Shown: positions 28,768 through 56,129 of the stretch, one piece after another
How the letters are laid out: the number at the start of each line of letters is the position of its first letter
How positions within the stretch are numbered: the first letter of the stretch is position 1
DNA from: Clostridiales bacterium
Lineage (GTDB): Bacteria; Bacillota_E; Sulfobacillia; Sulfobacillales; JAIMBI01
DNA: 64,000 bases
Direction of reading: 5' to 3'
NCBI GenBank assembly: GCA_027318915.1
Contig: DAHVOH010000002.1
Location: 49,116-113,115 of the forward strand
Made by a program: the position numbers and the translations under genes
Notes under the pieces: model-generated
What the model was told of the DNA's origin: nothing
Databases searched by the model: none
What the model saw: only the letters and a program-made list of their open reading frames with translations

Positions 28768-29011
28768 GCGCTCTTGCTGCACCGGGCGTTCGGGATGGCG
28801 GACTCTGGCGCCTGCTTCCGCGGCGGACAAGTGGACGATCATCGGGGGTCGGGACCGAGGAGTGCATGGCACGGGCGTTGATGCGCCGTTTGGCCCGTCC
28901 CCTCTGCGTCGTTCGACCGTGGCAAGCGGCGTCCCGGTGCGGGTCATGATGGTCACGCGCCCGCGCACGCGGGGTGGGCCGGCCAACGGTGGGGGAGCGA
29001 GGAGCTGTGCC

Positions 29012-32912: not shown

Positions 32913-33219
32913 GAGTCGCTCCTTTGTCTAGCAATGGGCGGCTCGGTGGGCACCACAAAAAAAGACACCCACCGAAGCACGGTAGGAGCCATCAGTCGCG
33001 ATCGACGATTGGCGGCCAGCTCCATGGCCGAGAGACCTGATTCCAGTGTACCAAACACGGCACGTCTCGGCCATAACCGATGCCCGGATCGCGAACGGCC
33101 CGCCGTCGGAGGAATCTTGGTATGCTGAGCGCAACTGGCCAAGGTGTTGGCCCGGATGTGTCCAAACCGCCGTCCCCGGCTGATAACACCTACCGATAGT
33201 GCAGCGGGAGGTGATGCGG

Positions 33220-38304: not shown

Positions 38305-38958
38305 TCAAGCCGCCGCCACAAGTTTGCCGTACATCCCCTGCTGCGCATGCCCGGGGGTCGGGCAGAGGTAGTAGTACGTGCCCGCGTCCAGCGTCAGGGA
38401 AGCGCTTTCGGTGGCGTAGGACGCTCCGGTCAAATTCTTTTCGCTCCGCGGCGGCAGCGGCATGAGAAACAAATCGCGTTGCGTCGACATCATAGGCACG
38501 TAGGAATACGGGGGCGGCGTCGTGGTGATTTCGAAACCGTGCCGGTACCCCCAGTCGGTGTTGACCAAGTCAACGGTGACCTCCGCTCCCGCGGGCACCA
38601 CCACCGTCGGGTTGACCAACCCGTCAATCTCCCAGGTCATGTTGGGCTGGCCGTGCGGAGACGCCAGCGCCACCAACGTCACCCGGCGTGTTGTGTACGT
38701 CACGGTATCGGCGGCTCGGCTGATGCGGGCGCCCCGGTCCCCGACGCGGACCCACGCCTGAACCTCCCCGGCATTGATCACCGCCTCGCCTCCGGCGCCC
38801 GTTCCGTCACCCCCCATCATCCCTGCCGGAAACATCCCGAGGGGGCGGTTGACGGCGCTGGGAAAGAGAGGCGCGCGTATGCTCCACCCCGCCACCAGAC
38901 CAGCCATTCCCACGCTGAGAAGGATCGCACCCGTCCACAGGGCCATCCGCCCGCTCAT
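38305..38958 (-). CDS. Membrane-anchored blue copper protein (sulfocyanin/rusticyanin-like)
   Basis: 217 residues: an N-terminal membrane anchor (~5-25), a Met/Gly-rich linker, then a cupredoxin barrel. Type I copper ligands are visible as H140 (YRHGFEI), C199 (YYLCPTPGH), H204 and M209 (AQQGMYG). The role would be extracytoplasmic electron carriage, possibly to a terminal oxidase. ATG 38958 overlaps the stop of the upstream SHOCT gene (ATGA), giving one two-gene operon. A terminator follows, and a two-component system is divergent. Confidence 0.88.
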   Translation of the reverse strand: MSGRMALWTGAILLSVGMAGLVAGWSIRAPLFPSAVNRPLGMFPAGMMGGDGTGAGGEAVINAGEVQAWVRVGDRGARISRAADTVTYTTRRVTLVALASPHGQPNMTWEIDGLVNPTVVVPAGAEVTVDLVNTDWGYRHGFEITTTPPPYSYVPMMSTQRDLFLMPLPPRSEKNLTGASYATESASLTLDAGTYYYLCPTPGHAQQGMYGKLVAAA

Positions 38959-41774: not shown

Positions 41775-42830
41775 ATGACAGCTGCCCGAGATTTTCGACG
41801 CCTGACATCTTTGGCCTCCTGCGCGGGGTGAGCGGCGAAAATGCCGCCAGGGTCTTTGGCGCAAATGCTGAGCGGATTTCGGGACATGTTTCCGGAGGAA
41901 CTGACGCGGTCGTTGTTGGTTGGGCTGGAGGAACCTGACGATGCGGCCGTGTATCAATTGGACCCCGACCGGGCGCTTATCTTTACGGCCGATTTCTTTC
42001 CGCCGGTGGTGGACGAGGCTTCGGCCTATGGGGCGATTGCCGCCGCCAATGCGCTGAACGACGTGTACGCGATGGGTGGGCGGCCCATCCTCGCGTTGAA
42101 CTTGGCAACCTTTCCGGAGGATATGCCGTCCGCGGTGGCGCGGGACATTCTCCAGGGAGCCGCATTCAAGGTGCGCGAGGCTGGGGCTGTGGTCGCGGGT
42201 GGGCATACGACGCGAGGCGAGGAGCCCGTCTTCGGTCTGGCCGTGATTGGGCTCGTGCATCCCGAGGCGTTGGTGCGGAAGAGCGGCGCGCGTCCGGGCG
42301 ACCGCTTGCTGTTGTCTAAGCCGTTGGGGACGGGTGTGCTGACCACGGCCGGCAAGGCCGGCGCCGCCGCCGGCAGCGATCTGGCCGAGGCGATCGTCAC
42401 CATGGCGTCTCTGAACGACCGGGCCGCTCGTGCGGCGGCTCAGGTCGGTGTCCGTGCGGGGACGGATGTGACCGGATTTGGCTTGGCCGGGCACGCGGTC
42501 GAAATTGCGGAGGCCAGTGGGGTGGCGTTGTGCCTTCAAATGGGCCGGCTCCCCTGGTTGCCGGGGGCATTCGAGTGCGCGTCGACGGGCTGGTTTCCGG
42601 GCGGCGAGGGCAGCAATGCCTCGTATTTCGGTTCGCGCGTGAACGTTCGCGGTGAAATCGGTGACGTGTCGCGACGCTTGTTGTTTTCGCCCGAGACGGC
42701 GGGTGGATTGTTGCTGGCGGTGCCGCCGGCGCATGCCGCCTCGTTGATCCGAGCCTGCCGTTCCGTGGGCCAAACCGTGTGGGAGATCGGGGAGGTTGCG
42801 GTGGGAGCCGGAGTGACCGTGACCCCCTGA
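41775..42830 (+). CDS. selD: Selenide, water dikinase with selenocysteine (SelD)
   Basis: 351 residues if TGA 41829-41831 is Sec (U19). The sequence LASCAG-U-AAK places Sec at the catalytic Cys17 position of E. coli SelD, with K22 matching Lys20. It makes selenophosphate from selenide and ATP for Sec-tRNA and selenouridine synthesis. The AIRS-like domain continues with LIFTADFFPPVVDEASAYG, DVYAMGGRP, GGHTTRGEEPVFGL and DVTGFGLAGHA. AAAGGAG precedes ATG 41775. A reading that starts at 41841 would lack the active-site residue. A SECIS-like hairpin follows the TGA. Confidence 0.96.
41845..41861 (+). promoter_or_regulatory. SECIS-like hairpin of selD
   Basis: Arms CGCCA / TGGCG with 7-base loop GGGTCTT, loop beginning 19 nt after the TGA. 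The GGGUC loop resembles the GGUC loop recognised by SelB in fdhF. A second, closer hairpin (GCGGC-GAAAAT-GCCGC) directly after the TGA may compete. Confidence 0.68.
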
Positions 42831-42903
42831 GCGTTCCGGTGCCGGCGGAGGGGCGGCCAGGGACAGGGTCGCGCACGCCTTCGCATCTCGGAAAGGAGTC
42901 GTG

Positions 42904-43980
42904 GTGGACACTCATTCTCGCATGGACGAGGTGGAGGCGGTTTACGACGCCCGCATTCGCGGCGCGTGTCTCGTCGCCGCCCGATCCCGATCGCGGATGC
43001 ATCTGCATGCCGGCTGTTGGGTGACGGCTTGCGCTTACGAGCCGGCCCGCCTCTTGGTTGCGTTCCCCAAGGAGTTTGAGGCGGCGGAGATGGTTCAGCA
43101 AAGCGGTTCGTTCGCGGTCAGCTTGGTGGCCGAGGATCAAGCGGAACTGTTGGCTGCCATGATGGACGGGCGTCACTCGCTCGACCAATTGGGACGCGAG
43201 CACTTTCTCCTGACGCCAGGCGGCTGTCCCGTTCTTCGGGACGGGGTGGGCTACGTGGATTGTCAGCTGATTGAGGCGATGGATTTGGGCGATGTGTTGT
43301 TGGCGGTCGGCGACGTGCGCGCCGCGGCCGTGCTCCATCCCGACAAGCACAACCTGACGGTCAACACGATTCAAGCCGGGGTCGAAGCGGGTCCGGCCCT
43401 GCTCCCCTTCTCGGGATTCGAAGACGGGGGCCACGATCTGCCGCTGGCTCCGGCGGCCGGCGCCGATGGGGAGGCCTTGGAGCGCGTCTATGCGCGGCGG
43501 CAGTGGGGGTTGTTTGCCGTGACGGCGGGTTTGGATCCCGACCCGCCCCAGCAGGTGAGTGGGTGGGCTATTCAGTGTGGTCATAGCCCGCCCCGCATGG
43601 CCGTCGCGGTGCCAAGAGGCGTCCCGACGGAGATGGGCATTCGCCGCAGCGGGACGTTTAGCCTGAGCCTGTTGGCCGAGGACCACTTACCGTGGGCGCT
43701 TGCCCTGTCCGCAGCGGGGGGCATGTCGACGGATAAGGCTGTGCCGGCCGGTGGCCGCGCGGCTTCGGGCACGCCGATTGTGGCTGACGGCATCGCGCAT
43801 TTTGCCTGTCGTGTCGACGGGGAATTCAATGCCGCGGCCGATTGCGCGGGCTTTTACGGCACCGTCGAGGCATTTGGTTGGGGACGTCGGGAGGCAAGGC
43901 CATTGTGTCAAGACCAATTGAGTGCTGCGCGCGAAGCGGCAGCCTTACGGAGAATCGGGCGGTCAACTACCCCGGCCTAA
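42904..43980 (+). CDS. Tandem flavin-reductase-domain protein, 3' end altered by insertion
   Basis: About 358 residues with two FMN-binding split-barrel (flavin reductase-like) copies: residues ~15-180 and ~195-345. Both show the same order (CWVTACAYEPARLLVAFPKE and SGWAIQCGHSPPRMAVAVPRG; QQSGSFAVSLVAEDQ and RRSGTFSLSLLAEDH). GTG 42904 sits 5 bases after AAGGAG. The last residues and TAA stop lie in the end hairpin of the adjacent TnpB element, so the native C-terminus was probably lost. Adjacent to selD; a reductive role is plausible. Confidence 0.82.
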   Translation: MDTHSRMDEVEAVYDARIRGACLVAARSRSRMHLHAGCWVTACAYEPARLLVAFPKEFEAAEMVQQSGSFAVSLVAEDQAELLAAMMDGRHSLDQLGREHFLLTPGGCPVLRDGVGYVDCQLIEAMDLGDVLLAVGDVRAAAVLHPDKHNLTVNTIQAGVEAGPALLPFSGFEDGGHDLPLAPAAGADGEALERVYARRQWGLFAVTAGLDPDPPQQVSGWAIQCGHSPPRMAVAVPRGVPTEMGIRRSGTFSLSLLAEDHLPWALALSAAGGMSTDKAVPAGGRAASGTPIVADGIAHFACRVDGEFNAAADCAGFYGTVEAFGWGRREARPLCQDQLSAAREAAALRRIGRSTTPA

Positions 43981-43987
43981 AGGCCGG
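43972..43987 (-). repeat. TnpB-element right-end hairpin
   Basis: CCGGCC-TAAA-GGCCGG; with flanks, the minus strand reads ...AAGCTCCGGCC-TTTA-GGCCGGGGTAGTT, a hallmark of tnpB right ends. Such ends encode the 3' part of the guide (omega/re) RNA scaffold, the guide being just outside the end. Confidence 0.78.
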
Positions 43988-44077
43988 AGCTTGCGACTCC
44001 CCGGAAGTGCGTCCGATGGCTGAACGCCATCTCCTTCCTTGTGCTGGGGTCGCATCGTAGGGCGGTTGACGTCGCCC

Positions 44078-45208
44078 TCACGACTGCGGGCCTGCCGCGA
44101 TCGCACCTGTCACCCGGTACTCAATTCCCTGGCGGTGCAGGTTCATGGCGCCAATCCGGTCATCGTTCGACCGGTAGTGGCATTGTTGGCACGCGAAGCG
44201 GTGTCGGCGCTTATCGCGATTTCCTCGGGCCACGTGCCCACATTTGGGACAGGTTTGCGAGGTATAGCGCGGATCCACGGCAACCGTAGCCGCTTGATAA
44301 AGCGTGGCTTTATATTCGAGCATCTGGCGGAGTTGGTAAAATGCCCACGACACGGACGTATACCGATCCCGTCGCCGGACCCGCTCCGTTGCCCCCCGAA
44401 TCCCCGTCAGATCCTCCAGGACGAATAGCGTCTTTGCGCCATAGCGGACCACGAGTGCCTTACTGACCTGATGGTTCACATCGGTCATCCAACGGTTTTC
44501 TCGTTGTCCTAAGCGTTTCAGGCGCCGGCGGGCGGAAGGAGTCTGCCGGCGTTGCAGGTTCTGCCGGAGGATCTTGAAGTGGGCGCGCTGCGCTTTGACG
44601 GCGCGGCCGGGGAAAAAGGTGGTCTGCCCCTGGGAATCGTAGGCCGTTACCAGGAAGTTGATGCCGAAGTCTAGCCCGACCACCTGACGAATCTCCGCCA
44701 GATCGGTCTCGGCCACGTCTTTCGTCATCGGTACATGGAGAAACCAGCGACCATGGCGGTGCACAAGATGTGCCGTGCCAAACTGCCAGGTCCCGTCGAA
44801 GAAGCGTTCCATGCCCTGCCGGGCGAAGGGGACCGGCACGCGGCCGGCCAGCGTATTGAGAGAGAATGCGCCGGCCTTCAAGGAATAGTCGCGATTCCAG
44901 ACGAGATCTAAGGCCGGTTTGGTGAACTGCACCCGAGTCCAGGGATGACCGTTGGCCAGAACACTCTTGTAGCGGGCAATCACGGTTTTGATCACCGATT
45001 GCGCCATTTGGGATCGCAAGCCAAACTGCGCCCGCAAGGGCCGGTAGGTCTCGGCGTGGAGATCGGCTTGCTGAAGGCAGTGCGTAGTATCGACGACCCC
45101 GGAGACCCAGTTGCACCCCTGACGGTAGGCCTCGACGGTCTGCTGGAGCAACGTCACCTGATCCGGATTCGGATACAATTGCACTTTCGCGGTCAAGGTC
45201 AGTACCAT
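44078..45208 (-). CDS. tnpB: TnpB RNA-guided nuclease (IS605 family)
   Basis: About 376 residues. RuvC catalytic residues: Asp in VVGLDFGINFLV, Glu in LFVLEDLTGIR and Asp in SNDDRIGAMNL. A zinc ribbon with CPKCGHVARGN and FACQQCHYRS lies between the last two. TnpB uses a guide RNA from the element end to cut the vacated target and retain the element. ATG 45208 is preferred over ATG 45226. All catalytic residues are intact, so it may be active. Confidence 0.93.
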   Translation of the reverse strand: MVLTLTAKVQLYPNPDQVTLLQQTVEAYRQGCNWVSGVVDTTHCLQQADLHAETYRPLRAQFGLRSQMAQSVIKTVIARYKSVLANGHPWTRVQFTKPALDLVWNRDYSLKAGAFSLNTLAGRVPVPFARQGMERFFDGTWQFGTAHLVHRHGRWFLHVPMTKDVAETDLAEIRQVVGLDFGINFLVTAYDSQGQTTFFPGRAVKAQRAHFKILRQNLQRRQTPSARRRLKRLGQRENRWMTDVNHQVSKALVVRYGAKTLFVLEDLTGIRGATERVRRRDRYTSVSWAFYQLRQMLEYKATLYQAATVAVDPRYTSQTCPKCGHVARGNRDKRRHRFACQQCHYRSNDDRIGAMNLHRQGIEYRVTGAIAAGPQS

Positions 45209-45305
45209 CGCAGACGCCCCCGACATTCACTAGACCTATAATATCTCAATGTTAGTGAGACCACAACATGGGAAGAAGGGGGACTTCTCTTACGTGGCTC
45301 CTGCC

Positions 45306-45319
45306 CGGCCTGAAGGCCG
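45306..45319 (-). repeat. Second end-like hairpin near the left side of tnpB
   Basis: CGGCC-TGAA-GGCCG in the same strand sense as the right-end hairpin. It may be an end remnant of another element or part of the left end. About 65 bp upstream of the tnpB promoter region. Confidence 0.5.
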
Positions 45320-45880
45320 AGGTCTCCGCCGCGCGGTATTTTGATGAATCGCGTGACCCGAGTCTTGTCGCTGTGCGCGGATCGGGCGGTCCGGCCCCGC
45401 CCATACGGGGGATTGGTCACGGCGCCGGGGAATCCCCTTGCGGGCTTCCGTCGTCGCCTCTGGTGGGGATGGCGTTCAGGCGCAGGGCAACGGCGGTTTG
45501 CGGACAGCGTTTCCCAGAGCGAGACCCCGTACGGCACCGCGCCCGTGCGCGCTGTTTCCCCCACCACCGTCAAGGTGAGGGGGCCGGATACGTACGTGGG
45601 TGCCATGGTTGGTGAGGACCAGAATGGGGCCGACGACCAGCATCGTCCGCACGGAATTGCGTTGCAGGCGCGGATGTTTTACGGCGCAGGTCCAGCAATG
45701 CGGCGCTGGCGTGCCTTCCTTGGGCAGTAGGAAAAGAGCGGAGGGGGCGACCCGCCCGCCTGCTTCGCACGACGCTGCGGTTGCCCCCTCCATGATGACC
45801 TCTTTCCTGACGCCGGCTGGGCGTCGGCGACCAACGGCGGAACGCGCTCCACCTCGGGCCGAGGCGGCCTCACCTTTTCC
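45320..45880. other. 560-bp gap with long inverted repeat
   Basis: No recognised gene. Contains GGAGGGGGCGAC (45740-45751) and GTTGCCCCCTCC (45780-45791), one mismatch, a 28-base loop; probable terminator on either strand for unknown transcripts. The rest may be IS-derived. Confidence 0.5.
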
Positions 45881-46360
45881 TCAGACCTGTGGCTGGCGCC
45901 GCAGGACGAAGGCGGCGGCCACCAATCCGAACATGATATGAGCGACGGCAAACGCCCAAGGTGCCATGTGCGTCGCCATCATGGGGTCAATGACGGGCAG
46001 GATGACGAACTGACTCACCACCCAGACGATAAGGCCGTACAGCATTCCCCACAGCAAGCGCACGGGCCCGAACCCAATCCGCAGGAGTTGAAATGCTTCC
46101 ACCAGAATGAGAGCCAGAACCACACCCATCATCATATGGGTCATCAACCCGACCAGAATGACTCCCACCGTCACGTGCATCATGGCCGCCGTGCCCAGCC
46201 AAGCGGCAGCAATCAACTGTACTGGGGCCCAAAGTCCCATCCCCATCAAAGCCGCCACGATCATCGCCCACATGGCCATCACCGCCGCGCCGACCAGACC
46301 CCCGACCACCGCGCGCCCCACTGGATAGGTGCGTACTGCGGGAACCGTTGTGACCGTCAC
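45881..46360 (-). CDS. Four-helix membrane protein, unknown
   Basis: 159 residues, Met/His-rich hydrophobic helices (MMHVTVGVILVGLMTHMMMG, PMMATHMAPWAFAVAHIMFG) spanning the membrane about four times. The intramembrane Met/His pattern could bind metal or heme. GGAGG 8 bases before GTG 46360. It lies opposite to, and directly upstream of, the Sec-glutaredoxin gene, which makes the 265-bp space between them a shared regulatory region. Confidence 0.76.
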   Translation of the reverse strand: MTVTTVPAVRTYPVGRAVVGGLVGAAVMAMWAMIVAALMGMGLWAPVQLIAAAWLGTAAMMHVTVGVILVGLMTHMMMGVVLALILVEAFQLLRIGFGPVRLLWGMLYGLIVWVVSQFVILPVIDPMMATHMAPWAFAVAHIMFGLVAAAFVLRRQPQV

Positions 46361-46625
46361 TGTCTAACACCTCCGGTTTCACTCTATCGAGGTGCGTCGA
46401 CCGGCTCTGTGATCCAGTTCGCATGGCGAGACATTCTGTGGACCTAATGATCGGGACGTCTGTCCGGACAGCGATTGCCCGGCCATCGTCAAACGGAGGA
46501 GAGACGGCGTGAACCGGTCGGCGGGACGCTTGGCGATGGACCGTGACGCTCCCGGCGGGTGTTTGGTGAAGCATCTTACAGACGGCGTCGGCGTCGACGC
46601 GCATGGTGGTGGCGGGAGTGATGGC

Positions 46626-46895
46626 ATGGCGCAGGTGACAGTGTACACGCAGCCCGGGTGAAACGCCTGCGAAACGGAGAAAGCGTGGCTTTCTCAGATG
46701 GGCATCGCGTACGAGGAACGGAATATACGCCAAGATCCACGCTGGTTTGACGAATTGCTTCGGACGGGGGCGCAGGCCACCCCGACGACCGTCGTGATGC
46801 GAAGTGCCGAGCAGGGGTCCTTGCCCACCGTGATTGTGGGGTTCCGGGCCGAACAGCTCCGAGCGGCGATTGACGCTCAGTCGCTCGGCGCTTAG
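46626..46895 (+). CDS. Selenocysteine glutaredoxin-like protein
   Basis: 89 residues with TGA 46659-46661 as Sec12: VTVYTQPG-U12-NAC15, a UxxC in place of the CPxC of glutaredoxin/NrdH. The cis-Pro loop TPTTVV and C-terminal VIVGFRAEQLRAAI follow the fold. It probably reduces disulfides or Sec-S bonds, perhaps of the neighbouring selenoenzymes. GGGAG is 8 bases before ATG 46626. Read from the downstream ATG 46698 it would lose the whole active site. SEC-C and glutaredoxin-like genes follow. Confidence 0.93.
46677..46695 (+). promoter_or_regulatory. SECIS-like hairpin of the Sec-glutaredoxin
   Basis: Perfect 8-bp arms GAGAAAGC / GCTTTCTC with loop GTG (or 7 bp with loop CGTGG), loop 24-26 nt after the TGA. 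Distance, stem length and G-bearing loop fit bacterial SECIS. Confidence 0.72.
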
Positions 46896-46926
46896 CGCCG
46901 AAACCCAGGAAAGGAGGTGGCAGAAG

Positions 46927-47064
46927 ATGGATGATAAGCCCGCCCAGAACGAAGCCTGTCCCTGTGGCTCCGGCAAGGCCTACGGCGCATGCTGCGGCCG
47001 CAACGAGGCATGTGCATGCGGCTCCGGAAAGAGAGCCGGCGACTGTTGCCACGCCTCGGCGTAG
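46927..47064 (+). CDS. Double SEC-C zinc-motif miniprotein
   Basis: 45 residues made almost only of two SEC-C motifs: ACPCGSGKAYGACC and ACACGSGKRAGDCC. Each C-x-C-(x8)-CC unit binds one zinc, as in the SecA C-terminus. AAAGGAGG before ATG 46927 is a strong ribosome-binding site. It lies 31 bp after the Sec-glutaredoxin and is probably cotranscribed. Role unknown; protein-protein docking or zinc storage are possible. Confidence 0.8.
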   Translation: MDDKPAQNEACPCGSGKAYGACCGRNEACACGSGKRAGDCCHASA

Positions 47065-47075
47065 GGCATGACCGC

Positions 47076-47108
47076 GAGGAGCCCCGGCCGGGTGGTCCGG
47101 GGCTCCTC
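47076..47108 (+). terminator. Hairpin after the SEC-C gene
   Basis: Perfect 12-bp arms GAGGAGCCCCGG / CCGGGGCTCCTC, 9-base loop, 11 bp after the stop; no T-run. Confidence 0.6.
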
Positions 47109-47207
47109 GGGGTGTGGAGCCGTCTGCGGCGGGGGCGTCCGATCCAAAGCCTCGATCGCTGCTCGCTGCGGCCATCAATCCTTCGCCGGCAGAGGGGGGA
47201 TCGCATC

Positions 47208-47465
47208 GTGGATCTGTGTGCCGCCGATTGTGAGACGGTGGTCCTGTATAGTCATGACGGGTGCCTCGGCGGCGCGGCAGCGCGGCAGTATTTTCTGACG
47301 CATCACGTGCCCTTTGTGTGGCGCAATCTCGGTGGCGACGCCGCAGCCCGGGAAGAGTGGCGAGCGCTTGCCGTGGTCGGGACCCCCGTGGTGGTGGTGA
47401 ACGGAATCGTACTGGTGGGTTTTGATCCCGTCGAATTTGAAAAGGCTCGCAGGGTGGTTCCCTAA
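47208..47465 (+). CDS. Monothiol glutaredoxin-like protein
   Basis: 85 residues with thioredoxin-fold order: VVLYSHDGCLGG with one Cys at the nucleophile position, VVGTPVVVVNG with the cis-Pro, and VGFDPVEFEKA. The resolving Cys of CPxC is absent (CLGG). GTG 47208 behind AGAGGGGGG is chosen. It lies between the Sec-glutaredoxin unit and the Crp/Fnr gene, 17 bp upstream of the latter, so the three probably form a functional set. Confidence 0.78.
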   Translation: MDLCAADCETVVLYSHDGCLGGAAARQYFLTHHVPFVWRNLGGDAAAREEWRALAVVGTPVVVVNGIVLVGFDPVEFEKARRVVP

Positions 47466-47482
47466 CGGAAGGAGCGGAAGGC

Positions 47483-48205
47483 ATGGCTGGTCAGCCTTCG
47501 GGATTGGAGAAGCTCGAATATCTGGCCCAGATTGATCTGCTGCAGGAATTGAATTCGGAAGATCTGAAGGCCATTGATGAGGTCGCGCCCATCCTGTCTT
47601 ATCCGCCTGGCACGACCATTTATGAGCCGGGAGCCGAGCTGAACCGGTTGTTTTTTCTCAAGCGCGGTCGTGTCCGGCTCTTTCGGCTGTCGCCGGACGG
47701 TCGTCAATTGACCTTTGCCGTCCTGCAGGACGGCAACATTTTTGGTGAGACGGACAGCTTCGCCACCGGAGCCGGATCGTGCTATGCGGAGACGGTGGCC
47801 CCAACCTTGGTGTGTGCGATGACGACGGCCGACCTGACCCGCTTCATGGAGCGCCATCCCGCCGTGGCGTTGAAGATGATTGCGATCCTCTCGCGGGAAT
47901 TGCGGCGCATCCAAGAGTTGACGGCGACGCTGGTTCTGGAGAATGTGCGAACGCGGGTGGTCTACGTGCTGGTGACGTTGGCCGAGCAGTTCACGGCACA
48001 TGACGCCGAGCCACCCGCCCTCATTCCGGTCAGCCTGACCCATCAGGATTTGGCCCAGATGATTGGCGCCACGAGAGAGTCGGTCAGTCAGGTGCTGGCC
48101 GAATTGAGCCGGGAAGGCGTAGTGCGCACGGGCCGCGGCGTCATCACCGTTTGCTGTGAGCGGGCGCGTGCCTTGATGGCGGATGACCCGGGCGGCGGTG
48201 CCTAA
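47483..48205 (+). CDS. Crp/Fnr-family transcriptional regulator
   Basis: 240 residues: cyclic-nucleotide-binding-type beta barrel (LSYPPGTTIYEPGAELNRLF, DGNIFGETDSF), a long dimer helix, and C-terminal HTH LTHQDLAQMIGATRESVSQVL. The N-terminal Cys set of FNR is missing, so it is not an FNR-type oxygen sensor; scattered Cys could still sense redox. It is convergent with the PRXL2 operon and cotranscribed with the glutaredoxin-like gene. Probably a local regulator of the island (inference). Confidence 0.88.
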   Translation: MAGQPSGLEKLEYLAQIDLLQELNSEDLKAIDEVAPILSYPPGTTIYEPGAELNRLFFLKRGRVRLFRLSPDGRQLTFAVLQDGNIFGETDSFATGAGSCYAETVAPTLVCAMTTADLTRFMERHPAVALKMIAILSRELRRIQELTATLVLENVRTRVVYVLVTLAEQFTAHDAEPPALIPVSLTHQDLAQMIGATRESVSQVLAELSREGVVRTGRGVITVCCERARALMADDPGGGA

Positions 48206-48214
48206 TGAACATGG

Positions 48215-48778
48215 CTATCGGTCCGCCAAAAGGTCGGACGGAATCCACCGGGCCAAGTCCGGGCGGTCAGCCGGTGTCCGGCTGTAATGGATTTGGCGGA
48301 TGATTCCACCGGGATCGATGAGGACGTCTCCACCCAATTGCCGCCAGTCATCCCGCGCGTCGGGCCGCCGCAGTCTTTGACCCCGCCGCATCAATCGGCC
48401 GTAGGCCATCCAAACCGCCGGATGAAATAGCTGCAGCAGGGTGCCGCGCTCCAGTCCGTAAAGACGATACGTGAATCGCTCGGAATCGGCCAGGATTGGA
48501 AAGGGCCAGTCCAGGGCTTGTTGATACTGACAAGCATCTTCCGGAGCAAGAGGGGTGACCGCCACCACCTGAATCGCCGGGTGGGGGCCCCGCCCAAGAT
48601 ACTGACCCGCCGACCGCAGGTGGTCTTGGCAAGGCAGTCAGTAGCGATGGCGGACAAAGATTAAAAGACACCACCGCCCCCGGTAGTCCGACAGGTTGAC
48701 CAGTCTGCCTTGCGCGTCGGGCAACGTGAAGTCAGGGGCCGGCCGCCCGGCGCCCAGCGGTTTGAGTCCGCCCGTCAC
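48215..48778 (-). CDS. Selenocysteine PRXL2/SelU-like peroxiredoxin
   Basis: 187 residues with TGA 48640-48638 as Sec47: LLIFVRHRY-U47-LP-C50, matching the (F/L)xRHxxCxxC site of AhpC-TSA_2/PRXL2 proteins, eukaryotic relatives of which include SelU. The fold continues IQVVAVTPLAPEDACQYQ, WPFPILADSERFTYRLYGLERG and the GGDVLIDPGGIIRQIHYS core. GTG 48778 overlaps the methyltransferase TGA in a GTGA. Last gene of the four-gene minus operon. Confidence 0.92.
48605..48621 (-). promoter_or_regulatory. SECIS-like hairpin of the Sec-PRXL2 gene
   Basis: Minus-strand arms ACCTGC / GCGGGT (one U-G pair) and loop GGTCG, starting 23 nt after the TGA. The GGUC loop matches the SelB-recognised loop type. 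Confidence 0.68.
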
Positions 48779-49572
48779 GACGCGAATCGGGCGATCCACA
48801 GGCCGTAACCTAGGCGCCCGTCCTCTATGGCCTTCAACAGGGCCTCCTGCACCTGCTTGATGCGCCGGATGTCCCAGGACGCGCCTGGACGGGCGCGCAC
48901 CAGCAAGGGGCTCCATGCGGTCACACGAGCCGCGATCTGTTCGACCATGGCCGTAAGGGCTGCCCGATGGTCCTGATACGTCACCACCTCAAATCCCGCC
49001 AGCGCCAGCAGATGTTCATACCCACGCGGGGAACGGGCGCCGCCCAAACAGGAAACCCAGGCGGCCAGCTCGTCCAGACCTTCCGGCAGCGGCCCGGTCC
49101 GAAAGATGTCGGCGACACCGACTCGGCCTGTTGAGCGGAGTACACGGCGCCATTCTCTCAGCACAGCCCCAGGATCAGGGAATAGGCAAAGCGAGCATTC
49201 GCAGGCGATGGCGTCGACCGTCGCGTCGAGCAGCGGAAGACGTTCCGCGTCGGCACGTTGAACGGTGACCCGCGCGTCCAGACCGGCCATGCTCACCTTG
49301 GAACGAGCCGCGGCGACCTGTTGGTCGCCGTATTCGATGCCGCGGACACGACAGCCGAACCGTTCGGCCCAACGACAGGCCGAGCTGCCCTGGCCGGCGG
49401 CCACGTCGACCAACAGGTCGTGCGCCGTTAATTCCAGCCCGTATCCCATCTCATCGGTCAAGGCGGCGCCGCCGGGATGCCAAAACTCTCCCAGCAGCCA
49501 AGTCACCCAGGGATATCCGTAGACGGTCGCACAACACGTGGTGATCTCCGCCGACCATGCCTCATCGGCCAT
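48775..49572 (-). CDS. SAM-dependent class I methyltransferase
   Basis: 265 residues. The Rossmann SAM motif is LLVDVAAGQGSSACRWAERFG and acidic IEYGD; the post-motif segment is ECSLCLFPDP. The N-terminal ITTCCATVYGYPWVTWLLGEFWHPGG and several Cys (CCA, CEC, SCLGG) are unusual and could bind metal or metalloid. Not clearly ArsM or UbiE. The ATG overlaps nothing but is 1 bp after the radical SAM stop, and its stop overlaps the Sec-PRXL2 GTG, so the genes are tightly coupled. Confidence 0.86.
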   Translation of the reverse strand: MADEAWSAEITTCCATVYGYPWVTWLLGEFWHPGGAALTDEMGYGLELTAHDLLVDVAAGQGSSACRWAERFGCRVRGIEYGDQQVAAARSKVSMAGLDARVTVQRADAERLPLLDATVDAIACECSLCLFPDPGAVLREWRRVLRSTGRVGVADIFRTGPLPEGLDELAAWVSCLGGARSPRGYEHLLALAGFEVVTYQDHRAALTAMVEQIAARVTAWSPLLVRARPGASWDIRRIKQVQEALLKAIEDGRLGYGLWIARFAS

Positions 49573-49573
49573 G

Positions 49574-51037
49574 TCAGCGAACCTCCCGGCCGAATGTCAT
49601 GGGTTGTGGAGCGGTGGTGCGTCTGCGATGGGCCAGGTGTTGGCGGGTCTGCTCCCGATATCCGACCGAGTTGTATGCGCAGAACGGGATCTGCCGCCCA
49701 TCCGGCAACAGGACGGCTTTGCAGCACTTCATGACCGTCTTTTGGTTGAAGGTCCAAGGATCCAGGAAATCTTGCAGCATGATCATGAACATTCGGTCGG
49801 CAACTCCGCTCAGATCTCCGAGCGGGGGAAGCCCGCACGCCACGCACGCGGTGGCGAAGTCCTGCGCCAGACTGGTCGTGCCTGGGACGGCCGCCGACGA
49901 CCAGAGGCTTGCCACTGCCTGCTGCAGACCCTCGACCGATACATCCGGCAGGACTCGGTTGGCCACAACGTCTAAGTATGGCTCCAGATTGATGAGGCGC
50001 GTCAGCGGTGTGACTCCCCCTTCATCGACATACGCGTAGCTGACGGCGTTGCAGGTCGGAAAACAGCAAGGCACGGGCAGAAAGTCTTCGCGTCGGAACA
50101 GGCCGGCGGTCTGTTCCTGGATCCACCGCACCACATCGGGGATGGTCACACGCTCCAACGGGTCGTGCGGGTCGTGCCGACCCGCGTGAAAGGCGGGCTG
50201 AAAGGTGATGCCGCGGACGGCCGGGTGGTCCAGGCCGAAGCGAATGATGGCGCCCACTTCATGCTCATTGACGTGCCGTTCGACGGCTGGCACCAACACA
50301 ACGCTCAAGCCGGCGGAGGCCAGCCGATCGAGCGCCGTCAGCTTGAGCGGCAGCAAATCGGGTTCGCCCCGAAGCCTTTCGTAGGTTCGCCGATCGAACC
50401 CGTCAAACTGAAAGTAGATGGAGGGGCGAACACGCTGAAGCTCCTCGAGAAAAGCGTCATCCAGGGCGATTCGCCGACCGTTCGTGTTGATCATGACGTG
50501 TCCGATGTCGCGGCGATTGGCGGCTTCGATCATGGCAATGAGATCCGGGTGGATGGTCGGCTCGCCACCGGAGAACTGCACCACCTCCGGGTGGCCCTCG
50601 GTCGCCACCAGGTGGTCCAGGATCGCTTCCACCTCAGGCAGGGTTAAATTGAATCCGGCGCCCGCATTGGCGAAGCAGAGAGGACACGCCATGTTGCAGG
50701 CGGAGTTCACCTCGATGATGCCCACACACACATGTTGCGCATGCTCGGGGCATAGACCGCAATCGTCGGGGCAGCCGTGAACAGTTGCGGTTGAGAACCG
50801 ATGGGGAATGGCCCCTGGCTTGTTGTAGCGTGTGAGTTCCAGGTACTGCGCGGCGTCTCCGTAGATACGAGCCTCAAAGAGCCCGTGCTCAGGGCAAGTC
50901 CGCCGCAGATACACTTGATTGTCCCTCAACACGACTTTGGCATCTAGGCTGCGCCGGCATTCCGGGCAAATACTGCGGGTCAATTCGTGAAAAATTTCCG
51001 GCGAAACCGGGAGCGCCCCGGACGGGTTAGGTAGCAT
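49574..51037 (-). CDS. Tes/MptM-like radical SAM enzyme
   Basis: 487 residues. An N-terminal Cys segment (ICPECRRS, RTCPEHG) and CPDDCGLCPEH precede the radical SAM CxxxCxxC at C114-C118-C121 (CNMACPLC). FSGGEPTIHPDL is the GGE motif; the C-terminus has PCCFPTC, KCCKAVLLPDGR and PFCAYNSVGYR, as in the Tes (tetraether synthase) / MptM (pterin methylation) family. It generates a 5'-deoxyadenosyl radical. Here between a Trx-like gene (11-bp overlap) and a methyltransferase. Substrate unknown. Confidence 0.87.
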   Translation of the reverse strand: MLPNPSGALPVSPEIFHELTRSICPECRRSLDAKVVLRDNQVYLRRTCPEHGLFEARIYGDAAQYLELTRYNKPGAIPHRFSTATVHGCPDDCGLCPEHAQHVCVGIIEVNSACNMACPLCFANAGAGFNLTLPEVEAILDHLVATEGHPEVVQFSGGEPTIHPDLIAMIEAANRRDIGHVMINTNGRRIALDDAFLEELQRVRPSIYFQFDGFDRRTYERLRGEPDLLPLKLTALDRLASAGLSVVLVPAVERHVNEHEVGAIIRFGLDHPAVRGITFQPAFHAGRHDPHDPLERVTIPDVVRWIQEQTAGLFRREDFLPVPCCFPTCNAVSYAYVDEGGVTPLTRLINLEPYLDVVANRVLPDVSVEGLQQAVASLWSSAAVPGTTSLAQDFATACVACGLPPLGDLSGVADRMFMIMLQDFLDPWTFNQKTVMKCCKAVLLPDGRQIPFCAYNSVGYREQTRQHLAHRRRTTAPQPMTFGREVR

Positions 51038-51371
51038 GACTTCCTCCCAGACATGCGCAACGATGGTCGACAGTGGCCGAGGACGGTGAGGACAAGCGGA
51101 GAAGCTGCGCGGTCAGGGTATCAAGGTCCGGTACGACTTCCTGGCTGTAGACAGACCCGTCAATGACAACAACGGGGGGATGGTACGCACCCAGTTTCAC
51201 CGCTTCGCGTAGATGAGCCAGCCAGGGCTTGACGGTGATGGAGGCTTCCACCCCGGCGTCCCGCACCGCTCTCTGTACGGTGGTCACGGTGAGATCGCAC
51301 TCCGGGCACACCCAGTCGGGAATGGTAACCGGTCCCTGGCGCCCCGTTATGCGGTAGACAACGATGTGCAA
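51027..51371 (-). CDS. Thioredoxin-like protein with CPEC motif
   Basis: About 114 residues of thioredoxin/glutaredoxin fold. It opens HIVVYRITGR and has VCPECDLTVTTVQRAV with CPEC in the redox position, and the cis-Pro loop PPVVVIDG. Cys not Sec. TTG 51371, 7 bases after GAGGGGGT, starts the first strand; GTG 51398 would add 9 residues. It is the first gene of the minus operon leading to radical SAM, methyltransferase and Sec-PRXL2 genes, and may donate electrons or receive the Sec enzyme's oxidised form. Confidence 0.78.
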   Translation of the reverse strand: MHIVVYRITGRQGPVTIPDWVCPECDLTVTTVQRAVRDAGVEASITVKPWLAHLREAVKLGAYHPPVVVIDGSVYSQEVVPDLDTLTAQLLRLSSPSSATVDHRCACLGGSHAT

Positions 51372-51944
51372 GCGGACACCCCCTCGCGACCCAGCCACCT
51401 CTTAGCTAACTTGTCCCTGGGTCCATCGTCTGTGAAGCCGATTACACAACCGTCCTGAAGCCCCCGACACAAACACCGCCGCCGGCTCAGTCGCGAGCTC
51501 AAGCGGAACCGGGATCCACCGTGGTTGGACCACGGGCATCCGGCGGTCGGGCACGAGTCACCCGGGCTGTGTTCACCCGGTCCCGTCTCCGCGAAAAGCC
51601 CGCCCGCCATGTGCCGCGCGGCGCGCCGTGGTGCCGATCCGGAGCGGGCATCGGAGGTGGCGACGGCGAGCAATGGGTCAGTCGGCATCAGCGATGCTCT
51701 CCGGACCGCTCCGACGCGGGGGTGGTTCGGAATGGCGGACTCGTGTAAGGTGGCTCACAGAGCCGGGACAACGGAAGCGATACATGATAGGGAGAGGATG
51801 CTGTAGGAAAGCTGAAATCAAGCCGGGGAAAACGGTGGCCGGACGCTCCGTAGCGTTGGTGCGGCGAGCGTCAGCCAGTGCGCCGGTTTCCGGCGTCGAA
51901 ATTGCGTAACCGTCGGCATGCCGTTTCAGTGAGGAGGTGGCTCC
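51372..51944. other. 573-bp divergent gap
   Basis: Separates the Trx/rSAM operon (minus) from the deiodinase-like gene (plus) and must hold both promoters. No credible gene, tRNA or strong hairpin seen. Confidence 0.5.
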
Positions 51945-52700
51945 GTGGAGATAAGCTATAACTATACGCATTTTCACCATATCAGTGACGAGACCTTCGA
52001 CCGGTTTCCGGCCCATCTGCCCGTCGGGTCCGTGGCACCAGGGGGAACGCTCATTCGACTGGCCGACAACGCCTCCGTGAACCTGTCCGACCTCTGCCGG
52101 CAGGGCCCGGTGGTCATGGAATTTGGGTCGTACACCTGACCCTATTGCGGGCTGGCGGCGCCAGCTCTCGAGAAGATGGCCCGAGACCCACGATTTGAGG
52201 AGTTTCAATGGGTTCTCATTTACACGCGCGAAGCGCATCCTGGGGAACTGGTCGGTGCGCACGCGACCTTTGCCGACAAGCTCGCGTGTGCGCAGAGATT
52301 CCAGCAGCGATGGCAGATCCAGCGGACCATTCTGGTGGACGATCTGGCGGGTTCTGTGCACCGGGCCTATGGCGGTCTGCCGAACATGACCTACATCGTT
52401 GCACAGTCGGGTCATGTGGTGTTTCGGGCCGATTGGACGGATGCCCACACGCTGGAATGGGCCCTGACGTATCTGCAGCATGAGACCCGGGAGAAAGCGT
52501 CCGGGCAGCGTGTGGCCTCCTTTTTCGCTGAGATTCAAGGCCACCGGAGCGCGATGGATTATCCCCGCGTATTTTTGGAGGGATTGTTGACGACGGGAGG
52601 TCGGCGAGCCGCGGATGAATACATTGCGGCGGTGCGCGACCAACGGTCGCCGCATCAGGCGAATAGGATGGAGCAAATTCTTGCAGAACTGGTCCGATAG
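51945..52700 (+). CDS. Iodothyronine-deiodinase-like selenoprotein
   Basis: 251 residues with TGA 52137-52139 as Sec65. EFGSYT-U65-PYC68 matches the deiodinase active site (FGSxTUPPF), then LIYTREAHPGE (deiodinase EAHP box), and RTILVDDLAGSVHRAYGGLP. UxxC includes a second Cys. Bacterial relatives are redoxin-like and need not act on iodotyrosines. The ~65-residue C-terminal helical extension is extra. GAGGAGG precedes GTG 51945. Facing the Trx/rSAM operon; probably a peroxidase or reductive dehalogenase (inference). Confidence 0.93.
52149..52167 (+). promoter_or_regulatory. SECIS-like hairpin of the deiodinase-like gene
   Basis: 8-bp arms GGGCTGGC / GCCAGCTC (one G-U pair) with loop GGC, 18-20 nt after the TGA. 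Confidence 0.72.
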
Positions 52701-52781: not shown

Positions 52782-55277
52782 TTAGCTTAGCAGTGTCCAG
52801 AGGAGCCCGACGGCGAAAGTGGCGGTGACGATTCCCATCAGGAAGGCTGTGGCAGGCGCGATGGTCCACGACCGCCACGGTCGGGCAGGCCAATGGGCCA
52901 ACGTCTCTCTGGCCGCCCTTTGTTTTGCCCGGACGGTGTTCACGATGACGGTCCGGTTCAGACGCACTCCAAACGAGTTGGCCAGCACGAGAGTGACGGA
53001 CGCAAGCATCGCCACCATGGCCCAGATGGGGCCCACCAGTCCCGAGACGGCAAGCGGCACGCCCACCCCGTTAAATAGGAACGCGATGGCAAGGTTCTGC
53101 TTGGTTTTCTCAAAACTGTGCACCGCAATGTCGCGGGCTTCCACGACCGCCGTCAGACGATTGCCCACCAGCACCACATCGGCCGACTCCATGGCGATGT
53201 CGGTTCCGGCTCCCATCGCCATCCCGATGTTGGCCTGGGCCAAGGCGGGCGCGTCGTTGATCCCGTCACCCACCATGAGCACGCGGTGTCCTTGGGCCTG
53301 CAGAGCGCGAATCACGGCCGCCTTGTCTTCAGGCAGCATCCGAGCTCGGACGTCGGTGATGCCGACGCGTCGGGCCACGGCAGCCGCCGTACGCTGGTTG
53401 TCGCCTGTGACAAGCAGCGGCGTGATGCCGATGGATCTCAGCCGGCGCACGACCTCTGCGGCGTCTTCCTTGAGGGTGTCGGCAATGGCCAAGAACCCCA
53501 TCAGGCGCCGGTCACGGGCGACGGCAATGACCGTTTCTCCCTGGTCTGCCCGCCCCTCATGCCATGCCCCGTCGCTTCCGACCCGTCGTTGGGGCTCCGA
53601 CACAAATCCGGCGACCCAGTCCGGTCGGCCGACGGCCACCCCTGCGCCATCGACCTCAGCCGTCACGCCCTGTCCCGTCTCCGACGTGAATTGCGAGATG
53701 GTTGGGAGCGGGAGGTCTTGCTCCATGGCGGCCGCCACGATCGCTCGGCCCAGCGGATGTTCGGAGGCGACCTCCACCGCTGCGGTTATCCGGAGCAATT
53801 CTTCGGCGGAAATGTCCCCGGTGGTCAGAAGCCCCGTCAGGCTGGGGCGTCCCTCTGTTAGCGTACCGGTCTTGTCCAGCACCACCGTGTCGATTTCGCC
53901 AAAGATTTGAAAGGGTTCGCCCGATCGCAGGAGGATTCCCCGCTCGGCCGCCAAACCCCCGCCGCGCATCATGGCGAGCGGAGTGGACATGCCCAGTGCA
54001 CACGGGTAGCCCAGCACCAAGACCGCCAGCACGGCGAAGACCGCACGGGTGGGATCAGGGTGTCCCGTCACCACCCACGCTCCGACGGTCCATGTGAGCA
54101 TGGCCAGGGCGGCGGCCGCCAGGACGCCGGGAACAAAAATGAGCAGGATCCGGTCCACGAGCTGGATGATGCCGGGTTTCAACGCCCGGGCTTCTTCGAT
54201 GTGGCGGGCTACCTGGGCCAAAAACGTGTCATCGCCGATTCGGGTCACCTCAATGACTACGGAGCCCGTCTGGTTGACGGACCCTCCAATCACGGTGTCC
54301 CCAACGCGCTTGTCAACGGGAATCGGCTCGCCGGTCACCATCGATTCGTCGATGGTGGAGGTGCCGGCGATGACTCGACCGTCAAGCGGCGCCCGCTCAC
54401 CGGGACGAATCCGCACCGACTCGCCCAGACGGACGTCGGCCAGCGGAACTTCGATCTCACGTCCCGCTCGCAGCACGCGGGCCGTATCGGGCTGCAGGGC
54501 GAGGAGGTGGCGCACGGCATCGGAGGCGCGTGTGCGCACCAGCGAGGACACATATCCGGACAGCAGGTGGTAGGTGGTAATGAACACGGACACCGCGAGG
54601 AAATCTCCGGCGGGAAACAGTCGAGGTGCCGCCAGCAAGCCGAGCAGACCGCCGCCAAGACCCGCACCGGCGCCCATCTCCAAGAGCACATGCTGGTTGA
54701 GAATGCCGCGACGCAGGCTGCCCCACGCCATCTGCAGGATGGGGCGGCCAATCACCAACATCATGGCCAACGCCAGTCCTAAGATCAGCCAGGGACCGTA
54801 GACAAAGAGACGCCCGTCGATCGGAAAGGAGGGGGAGTGCCCGTCAAGCCACGTGTAGCCCATGAGGGCGAGCGTGACCACGCTTGCCACGAGGCCCATC
54901 CGTAACCGTCCTCGCTCGGCGCTCAAATCGGCGGCGGCCTCTTCGTAGGCGTTGAGTTTGCGGGGGTCTCGGATGGCAAATCCCAGCGCGCGCAGCGTGT
55001 CAACGACGTTCTGGGGGTCGATGAGATCCGGTTGGTAGGTGATGAGTCCCTCCTCATGAGCGAGCGACACGGACACGCCGGTCACGCCCTCAAGACGGCC
55101 GACGGCTCGTTCGACCGTGGAAATGCAAAATGAGCAATGCAGATTGCCAAGCTTTACCTGCAGGCGATCCAGGCCATCTTCTCCTCGCCGAACGCGCGTG
55201 CCGATCCAGGAGTCGGCAGTATTAACCGCGACGAGCCGCTCCCCGCTGTGCGCGTTGTGTGTTCCGCTCGAGTCCAT
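52782..55277 (-). CDS. Heavy-metal (copper-type) P1B ATPase with altered CPC motif
   Basis: 831 residues: an HMA domain with C48/C51 (NLHCSFC), about eight helices, actuator TGEPIP, phosphorylation DKTGTLT, the SEHPLG motif and hinge GDGINDAP. In TM6 the usual CPC reads YPC ([16 protein letters not shown]), so the first Cys is lost; metal preference may be unusual. ATG 55277 sits behind AAAGGGGG. Divergent CopZ-like and CueR-like genes and two MerR-type promoters point to copper or a soft metal. Confidence 0.9.
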
Positions 55278-55297
55278 GCGGATGCCCCCTTTGTCGC

Positions 55298-55329
55298 ATC
55301 GTAATCGTTCCATCCCCGTGGAAAGTCAA
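55298..55329 (-). promoter_or_regulatory. MerR-type promoter of the P-ATPase
   Basis: On the minus strand TTGACT (55329-55324) and TACGAT (55303-55298) are separated by 20 bp, the long spacing used by MerR-family activators. The spacer has dyad TTCC-N8-GGAA. Confidence 0.55.
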
Positions 55330-55406: not shown

Positions 55407-55461
55407 CGCCAAAACGGTGAAGAGTAGGGGACGCTCGATCCCGTTCGGGGAGGTGTCCGTG

Positions 55462-55686
55462 ATGATCGTCATGACCACGATTGCCGTGGAGGAAATCCAC
55501 TGCGACAATTGTGTGCGAACTATCCACCAAGCCTTGATGTCTCTGCCCGGCGTGCATCAGGTGATCCTCCGTGCTGGACGCCGTGATGTCCGTGTGCTGT
55601 TCGATGCTGAGCGGATGGATGAGGAACGTCTTCGAAGCCGTCTGGCCGAAGTCGGATACAACCCTGTCGCACAGGGAGGCGCATGA
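55462..55686 (+). CDS. CopZ-like HMA metallochaperone
   Basis: 74 residues of ferredoxin-like HMA fold with EEIHCDNCVRTIHQAL (CxxC metal site) and VRVLFDAERMDEERL. It would carry Cu(I) to the ATPase HMA domain. ATG 55462 is 8 bases from GGGGAGG; the stop overlaps the regulator start. Under the CueR-box promoter. Confidence 0.85.
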   Translation: MIVMTTIAVEEIHCDNCVRTIHQALMSLPGVHQVILRAGRRDVRVLFDAERMDEERLRSRLAEVGYNPVAQGGA

Positions 55687-56129
55687 TGACCCGTGGTGGG
55701 TTAAACCGGACGGATATCCCAGTCCCGATGCGCATCGGACAGCTGGCCGCTCGCGCCGGTGTGAATCCCAAGACGATTCGGTTTTATGAGGAACGAGGGC
55801 TGTTGCCGACGCCGTTGCGCACATCGGCGGGCTACCGGACATACGGCGACGAGGATTTGGCCCGGTTGAGGTTCGTGAAGAGCGCCCAGCGGCTCGGTCT
55901 TCGCCTAAACGAGATCGGGGAGATCTTAGCGTTCAAGGAACAGGGCGCACGACCCTGCGATTATGTTATCCAACTGTTGGGACGGCGGATCGACGAGATC
56001 GACCGGCACCTGGCCGAGCTGCAACGACTGCGGGATGACCTCGAGACATTGAAGGCTGAAGCGGATCGGCTGCCGGCAGCGGGAGCCAATTTTTGCCGCA
56101 TCATCGAGCATGGGGTCCGGGCGCGATAG
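55683..56129 (+). CDS. MerR-family regulator (CueR-like)
   Basis: 148 residues. N-terminal MerR HTH MRIGQLAARAGVNPKTIRFYEERGLLP, long dimer helix, then C-terminal metal-sensing Cys in ARPCDYV and NFCRIIEH. The CueR-box upstream argues for Cu(I) sensing. Overlaps the CopZ-like stop by an ATGA. Confidence 0.9.
   Translation: MMTRGGLNRTDIPVPMRIGQLAARAGVNPKTIRFYEERGLLPTPLRTSAGYRTYGDEDLARLRFVKSAQRLGLRLNEIGEILAFKEQGARPCDYVIQLLGRRIDEIDRHLAELQRLRDDLETLKAEADRLPAAGANFCRIIEHGVRAR

Follow-up and report, generated by a model that had tools for sequence, protein, structure and literature searches.

The stretch examined here, hereafter the window, comprises 64,000 nucleotides (nt) of contig DAHVOH010000002.1 from a Clostridiales bacterium (assembly GCA_027318915.1) and carries five genes, each with a single in-frame TGA at the position of a catalytic cysteine (Cys). 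Comparison with related sequences strongly supports these TGAs as selenocysteine (Sec) codons that would be read with selenocysteine insertion sequence (SECIS) hairpins, the peroxiredoxin Prx6 being the weakest case. Two of the encoded proteins, a SelL/PRXL2-type redox protein and a glutaredoxin (Grx), lie close to genes for a thioredoxin-like (Trx-like) protein and two S-adenosylmethionine (SAM) enzymes, namely a radical SAM enzyme and a methyltransferase. The reading that we consider likely is that the Sec genes are real and that SelL and Grx belong to a conserved radical SAM/methyltransferase redox module.

Five genes with an in-frame TGA

The five genes and their predicted Sec codons (U in the motifs) are as follows.

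18400-19044, plus strand: Prx6-type peroxiredoxin, predicted Sec TGA at 18547-18549, motif PxxxTxxU
41775-42830, plus strand: selD (selenide water dikinase), predicted Sec TGA at 41829-41831
46626-46895, plus strand: glutaredoxin (Grx), predicted Sec TGA at 46659-46661, UNAC
48215-48778, minus strand: SelL/PRXL2-type redox protein, predicted Sec TGA at 48640-48638, ULPC
51945-52700, plus strand: deiodinase-like protein, predicted Sec TGA at 52137-52139, UPYC

An earlier sequence-only reading had claimed these coordinates and TGAs, with a fifth Sec gene 23 kb away, which corresponds to Prx6, and had stated that coding homology continues across the TGA at the Cys site. Both statements are borne out, the family profiles spanning the TGA in all five genes. 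The selD product reaches the equivalog cut-off of TIGR00476 (342.3 bits against 125), Grx the cut-off of PF00462 (39.2 against 22.9), SelL that of the SelL-related redox protein subfamily NF040769 (133.2 against 120), the deiodinase-like protein the gathering score of PF00837 (iodothyronine deiodinase; 44.1 against 27) and Prx6 the equivalog NF009668 (peroxiredoxin PRK13189; 275.9 against 211). Scores fall below the cut-offs of the UXX-star glutaredoxin-like model NF041212 for Grx (41.6 against 66), of the deiodinase family protein model NF038285, which is curated, for the deiodinase-like protein (67.6 against 250) and of the PrxU model NF040737 for Prx6 (122 against 270). The TGA of Prx6 aligns with the conserved peroxiredoxin Cys of 5ovq, its best solved-structure match (E 1.6e-69), and that of the deiodinase-like gene with a Cys of the Dio3 entry 4tr3 (E 1.9e-7) and the Dio2 entry 9h48 (E 8.4e-5). 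Prx6, Grx, SelL and the deiodinase-like protein belong to families that we take to have a thioredoxin-type fold.

Four of the five genes have relatives with TGA at the identical codon. A close selD homologue is present in 10 of the 13 genomes of the order that includes one such relative, G002 (genomes, contigs and loci are given by our working labels G, C and L), and the best copy in each has one TGA; across the loci compared, the selD codon is TGA in 42 of 44 distinct contexts, with one TGC and one TGT. For Grx, 12 of 18 distinct contexts have TGA and six TGC. The 16 SelL contexts comprise four with TGA, seven with Cys codons and five with other codons, the last being distant matches; the close TGA relatives in this set are those of G008 and of G002, the latter in a UxxU form. 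The deiodinase-like TGA recurs in G002 (53% identity) and in G144 (37%, lacking the second Cys), and one distant match has TGC.

Each TGA in the window is followed by a candidate SECIS hairpin.

18580-18598, plus strand: Prx6 SECIS-like hairpin, 8 bp, loop GUU, 38 nt after the TGA
41845-41861, plus strand: selD SECIS-like hairpin, 6 bp, loop GGUCU
46677-46695, plus strand: Grx SECIS hairpin, GAGAAAGC-GUG-GCUUUCUC
48605-48621, minus strand: SelL SECIS hairpin, 6 bp, loop GGUCG
52149-52167, plus strand: deiodinase-like SECIS hairpin, 8 bp, loop GGC, also found in G002

A loose model, given in the part of PMC13188914 available to us (loop of 3-9, stem of at least 4, minimum free energy of -7.5 or lower, with a published spacing of 16-37), was passed by all five sites, yet also by 61% of 400 random TGAs from the window; at a G+C content of 66.6% such hairpins are thus uninformative, and the loose model was dropped as evidence. 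A strict rule requires a stem of at least 6 unbroken pairs, a loop of 3-6 that starts with (N)G[GU], and a spacing of 15-38, the upper limit of which lets Prx6 in. All five Sec sites of the window pass, against 144 of 1556 control TGAs, and the earlier claim of four hairpins at the expected distance holds under this rule, the loose model having nothing to say on it. Because the strict rule was devised after the window folds were known, the relatives provide its independent test: 77 of 103 Sec-TGA sites pass (selD 64/85, Grx 9/12, SelL 3/4, deiodinase 1/2), against 2 of 28 Cys sites, many of which are from distant thioredoxin-fold proteins. Control TGAs in relatives, of which every third was tested, pass in 219 of 2417 and 633 of 12645 cases. 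An Rfam scan of the window at the gathering threshold returned no SECIS family.

The selD hairpin lies at an almost identical place in selD relatives with at least 58% identity. In an alignment of 10 Grx sequences all 80 cells are paired, and two pairs are changed on both sides (5 cells); none of 500 shuffles reaches the covariation score. The 10 sequences were picked by a pattern that contains the hairpin, so that selection favours pairing and the compensatory changes weigh more than the complete pairing. Among five SelL sequences, 5 of 7 pairs are changed on both sides, a count as high in only 4 of 500 shuffles, and again no shuffle of 500 reaches the covariation score. The window's own hairpin sits three bases nearer the TGA than the register of the relatives, and the row that breaks pairs in the alignment is that of the window. 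The SelL genes of G002 and G094 have two TGAs (UxxU), for which one hairpin conforming to the strict rule serves both codons, 25 and 16 nt away.

Of the related genomes, 14 of 18 have selA and 10 of 13 have selB above the cut-off, and tRNA-Sec was found at 75 bits (gathering score 47) in both genomes searched. The order members G005, G012 and G013 have neither selA nor selB over the cut-off nor a close selD. A tRNA search of the window itself found none. Taken together, the TGAs in relatives, the compensatory hairpin changes and the machinery of related genomes strongly support Sec decoding in this lineage, as far as sequence comparison can speak to it. Symbiobacterium thermophilum has previously been described as rich in selenoproteins, according to the accessible part of PMC1794560.

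We also used codon usage to look, among all TGAs of the window, for those flanked on either side by coding sequence. Six places emerged, three of which are the Sec genes for Prx6, the deiodinase-like protein and Grx; selD and SelL were missed. With this sensitivity of three in five known genes, the scan, which is not exhaustive, yielded no convincing further Sec gene in the window. The TGA at 15383 was ruled out as a stop beside a start codon, and that at 16171 (minus strand) lies opposite an open reading frame (ORF) at 15389-16426. The TGA at 29370 (minus strand) passes the hairpin rule and is opposite an ORF at 28862-30133; it is at most a weak candidate.

The radical SAM/methyltransferase operon

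SelL is the last gene of a minus-strand operon that extends from 51398 to 48215 and starts with three further genes.

51027-51398, minus strand: thioredoxin-like protein (CPEC), first operon gene, best family matches below cut-offs
49574-51037, minus strand: radical SAM enzyme, Tes/TrsS-like, with an N-terminal zinc ribbon
48775-49572, minus strand: methyltransferase, DVU_1556/ArsM-like

The Trx-like and radical SAM genes overlap by 11 nt, a 1-nt gap separates the latter from the methyltransferase gene, and methyltransferase and SelL overlap by 4 nt. A database search with the Trx-like protein gave four proteins including itself, among 31 candidates, and it has orthologs at 51-59% identity in four related genomes. 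The radical SAM gene reads without an in-frame TGA; its product matches 4551 database proteins at E 1e-100, and where organisms are named among the best 120 they are Chloroflexota. Among the 25 families listed for the methyltransferase, the nearest are the DVU_1556 and arsenite methyltransferase models, and its ortholog in G094 clears the DVU_1556 model NF045667 (157.6 against 155).

The radical SAM gene was searched for in 154 genomes of the class and found at E 1e-60 or better in five. In all four genomes with a relative of at least 66% identity (G002, G059, G088 and G094), the Trx-like, methyltransferase and SelL genes are grouped with it in about 3.2 kb, and SelL has TGA in each (UVPC in G059, ULSC in G088, UxxU in G002 and G094). 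The wider surroundings are shared in part. On one 11-kb stretch G059 carries the membrane-like protein, second glutaredoxin, Crp, SEC-C protein, MerR, HMA protein and copper ATPase of the window (listed below). G094 has Grx(Sec) and the SEC-C protein near the module, lacks Crp on its 12-kb contig, and encodes a mercuric reductase (MerA; 577 bits, cut-off 454) 1.6 kb from SelL. In G088 the second glutaredoxin, Crp and the membrane-like protein are present, and the reading frame of the radical SAM gene is split in two. This gene order supports SelL and, less constantly, Grx as Sec members of a conserved module with an operon core. Beyond these genomes, SelL(Sec) of G008 (L183, G008:C188) is accompanied by Crp, two Cys glutaredoxins and a TIGR04283 arsenosugar glycosyltransferase; a MerA-like flavoprotein below the MerA cut-off is also nearby.

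The sequence-only reading had placed the Sec genes in an island around selD, which holds only in part. Grx and SelL do lie in a conserved neighbourhood, which is one of SAM enzymes and a Trx-like protein to which selD is not adjacent on the stretches examined in relatives. As a module member, selD is unsupported in the class, no module gene being near it in L001, L002 and L083, and none of the module stretches (L183, L184 and L199-L201) containing selD. Despite this pattern, selD abuts the enzyme pair in the distant genome G444. A sample of 398 genomes from the phylum gave five radical SAM matches at 1e-90, including that of G002; among the other four, G444 alone has neighbours from the set. 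There (L207, 5403-8626, minus strand) selD, a TrsS-like radical SAM gene (46%) and a methyltransferase gene (39%) follow each other closely on one strand, an arrangement hinting at a link between the pair and the use of selenium.

The deiodinase-like gene lies next to the operon in the window, and a plasmid bears on its place in the module. Among 72,556 plasmid records, a relative of the radical SAM enzyme is encoded by ten (E 1e-40) and a deiodinase-like relative by one (E 1e-6); the latter, NZ_CP126902.1 of Mycolicibacterium vanbaalenii JOB5, is also the best radical SAM plasmid. Within about 16 kb it carries the radical SAM enzyme (52%), the methyltransferase (39%, with a 4-nt overlap), the deiodinase-like protein (32%) and a mycoredoxin-type Grx (40% over 35 residues, E 4e-4), together with an annotated Crp/Fnr regulator, an AhpD-like protein and Rv1678-1681-type genes. 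An annotated peroxiredoxin-like, SelL-related protein of the plasmid scores 73.5 bits on NF040769, below the cut-off of 120, and there is a weak match to the membrane-like protein of the window (E 3e-4). The plasmid's deiodinase-like protein and Grx show Cys at the Sec positions of the window. SelL gave no match in the plasmid records at E 1e-8. A Persicobacter plasmid, considered as a second counterpart, was set aside as it carries the radical SAM gene only. NZ_CP126902.1 offers the strongest argument for grouping the deiodinase-like gene with the SAM enzymes; the evidence on this membership is divided.

A search with the deiodinase-like protein gave 361 database proteins at E 1e-10. Among the best 120 of them, 115 start after the Sec codon, 108 of these at query residues 66-90, and the window's own database entry is one of the 115. 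The five that span the position have Cys (two), tryptophan (two, as if TGA had been read as tryptophan) or a disrupted site (one). Judged from these protein starts, and not from the DNA, this suggests that the family is mostly Sec-encoding and is cut at the TGA by gene callers.

Around the operon, the window contains the following genes.

45881-46360, minus strand: membrane-like protein, no Pfam family, also a neighbour of the module in G088 (63%) and G059 (31%)
46927-47064, plus strand: 45-residue protein carrying two SEC-C motifs, with counterparts close to the module in G059 (74%) and G094 (76%)
47208-47465, plus strand: second glutaredoxin-like protein (Grx2), Cys form GCLGG
47483-48205, plus strand: Crp/FNR-type regulator
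52782-55313, minus strand: copper/heavy-metal P-type ATPase (TIGR01511, 456 bits, cut-off 397)
55417-55686, plus strand: HMA-domain metal-binding protein
55683-56129, plus strand: MerR-family regulator, no specific MerR-type cut-off reached

An IS605 OrfB/TnpB-like gene (44078-45226, minus strand) sits between selD and the module. Farther away, two back-to-back fluoride riboswitches (Rfam; 32976-33038, minus strand, 39.6 bits, and 33128-33199, plus strand, 36.6 bits) precede an MFS transporter gene (31716-32912, minus strand) and an ORF (33199-34017, plus strand) that matches DUF6062 only. A sulfocyanin (SoxE)-like cupredoxin is encoded at 38305-38790 (minus strand), with response regulator and histidine kinase genes nearby; a respiratory role of this cupredoxin would point to a possibly aerobic host. 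Aerobic carriers of selenoproteins are described as rare in the available portion of PMC13188914.

A putative pathway and its alternatives

We propose that the radical SAM enzyme and then the methyltransferase would act successively on a single substrate, and that the Trx-like protein, Grx(Sec), SelL(Sec) and perhaps the deiodinase-like protein would be dedicated reductants that recycle this substrate or, alternatively, reduce a soft-metal, metalloid or chalcogen adduct. The Trx-like protein, Grx and SelL may thereby supply electrons to the two-step SAM reaction or clear adducts from it, the selenol being both a soft-metal ligand and a fast nucleophile. The Crp/FNR and MerR proteins might induce the module under redox or metal stress, selD would provide selenophosphate to the whole cell, and Prx6 could be an independent peroxidase. 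As to the role of the module, we tentatively favour metal or metalloid handling, short of an even chance, because the copper ATPase, HMA protein and MerR (window and G059) and MerA (G094) adjoin it, and because of the arsenosugar glycosyltransferase near SelL in G008 and the likeness of the methyltransferase to arsenite methyltransferases. The scheme in full, that is a selenium-dependent radical SAM/methyltransferase pathway for soft metals, metalloids or chalcogens with SelL, Grx and the deiodinase-like protein as reducing partners and a Cys counterpart in Actinomycetota, is a speculative proposal that we would not expect to hold in every part.

Several observations weigh against the preferred reading of real Sec genes and a conserved redox module. 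Concerning Sec decoding, Prx6 has no TGA relative in 12 contexts (12 Cys relatives) or in another set of 11, so that its assignment rests on motif, alignment and hairpin, and the spacing of that hairpin is one beyond the published range. For Grx, 52 of 500 shuffles reach the same count of two pairs with both sides changed. The evidence from selA, selB and tRNA-Sec comes from related genomes and not from the source genome of the window; 5 of 14 control genomes likewise score above the tRNA-Sec cut-off of 47, and G094, with Sec codons in SelL and Grx, has no selA over the cut-off, a gap that we suspect to reflect an incomplete assembly. Concerning the module, Grx(Sec) is beside it in the window and G094 only: neither the G088 stretch nor the 3.9-kb G002 contig showed it, and the Grx of G059 is a remnant without the N-terminal active-site part. 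In G002, SelL, the Trx-like gene and Crp are on the strand opposite the SAM genes. Radical SAM relatives of at most 42% identity (G126, G256, G334 and G452) occur without the module; that of G126 (39%) has none of its genes alongside. The stretches examined around the deiodinase-like genes of G001, G002 and G144 hold no module gene, and the window's Crp and SelL have no match on NZ_CP126902.1 at E 1e-3. The two SAM enzymes miss the equivalog cut-offs of their nearest models, namely TrsS NF045646 (334.6 against 490) and Tes NF045702 (324.9 against 450) for the radical SAM enzyme and DVU_1556 NF045667 (131.4 against 155) for the methyltransferase. Any substrate of the pair is putative. Finally, the metal genes may be mere neighbours.

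The main rival is that the pair modifies membrane lipids like archaeal Tes, the Sec proteins protecting or reducing and the metal genes being chance neighbours. The only solved structure that matches the radical SAM enzyme over most of its length is indeed the tetraether/macrocyclic archaeol synthase 7tol (271.6 bits, E 1e-79, residues 7-462 of 487), and the Tes model of NCBIfam is among its matches; the enzyme nevertheless scores under the Tes cut-off and slightly closer to TrsS, while the methyltransferase is, among the 25 families listed, closest to the DVU_1556 and arsenite methyltransferase models. We regard a lipid role as unlikely. That real Sec genes cluster here by accident, as independent redox genes of a selenoprotein-rich lineage in an 11-kb stretch, is less probable still. 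Extra TGA copies of selD and Grx in several genomes of the order would fit such a lineage, as would the absence of module genes near selD and near the three deiodinase-like genes named above, but SelL and the three other core genes stay together in all four close relatives, Crp, Grx, SEC-C and metal genes recur in part of them, and a similar set is found on a plasmid from another phylum. Equally improbable to us is a peroxide/thiol defence network with no specific link to SAM chemistry, which the sequence-only reading had suggested. In its favour, the products of the four genes other than selD have redox-family matches in which Sec takes the place of Cys; such a network leaves out, however, the SAM enzymes that recur with SelL in every close relative, the methyltransferase gene even overlapping SelL, and Prx6 is 23 kb off. 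We hold it to be extremely improbable that the TGAs reflect sequencing errors, pseudogenes or ordinary stop codons: a single error would likewise yield one TGA per gene, and the database entry for the deiodinase-like protein begins downstream of its TGA, but TGA recurs at the same codon of selD, Grx, SelL and the deiodinase-like gene in other genomes, accompanied by covarying hairpins that 26 of 28 Cys sites lack.

Comparison with known systems

To our knowledge, the partners of bacterial deiodinase-like proteins have not been identified; if the selenium-dependent SAM pathway is true, it would give these proteins a pathway context. Through the module, what was an inventory of selenoproteins also becomes a pathway that can be put to the test, in that one operon joins two SAM enzymes with a Sec redox protein. 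The Sec and Cys versions of the neighbourhood, in the window and on the plasmid, offer a natural system for asking what selenium buys. The protein starts discussed above further suggest a bacterial deiodinase-like family that is largely Sec-encoding and truncated in databases.

The families are known individually. In the part of the 2026 review PMC13188914 that was accessible, Table 1 contains all five selenoprotein families with the same Sec motifs, and PxxxTxxU is the motif given for Sec peroxiredoxins; four Sec deiodinase-like sequences from the Sargasso Sea were reported in 2005, as stated in the available text of PMC1088965. The combination of genes in the module was not found in the open-access literature searched, as judged from titles and the starts of abstracts and with no search aimed at deiodinase together with radical SAM, which does not prove novelty. 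The window shares its motifs with the known SelD, Grx, Prx, Prx-like thiol:disulfide oxidoreductase (UxxC/UxxU) and deiodinase-like (UxxC) families; it differs in lineage, in having SelL and Grx within a SAM-enzyme module, and in a deiodinase-like subfamily that looks mostly truncated in databases.

Multi-gene Sec loci are also known. SAO and Tso are thought to serve a single pathway each, SAO with organometallic chemistry, according to the portion of PMC13188914 available. The window resembles them in having several Sec genes at one locus, whereas its proteins differ; no Sao or Tso model is among the families, at most 25 per protein, listed for the scanned proteins. The best NCBIfam matches of the SAM pair are the TrsS radical SAM (seleno)protein and the DVU_1556 methyltransferase. 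Compared with TrsS, the radical SAM enzyme of the window scores below the cut-off, has no in-frame TGA in its gene and is linked with SelL(Sec) and a Trx-like protein. Compared with archaeal Tes, which it matches over nearly its full length, it is a bacterial enzyme that scores below the Tes cut-off and has a methyltransferase and Sec proteins as its partners.

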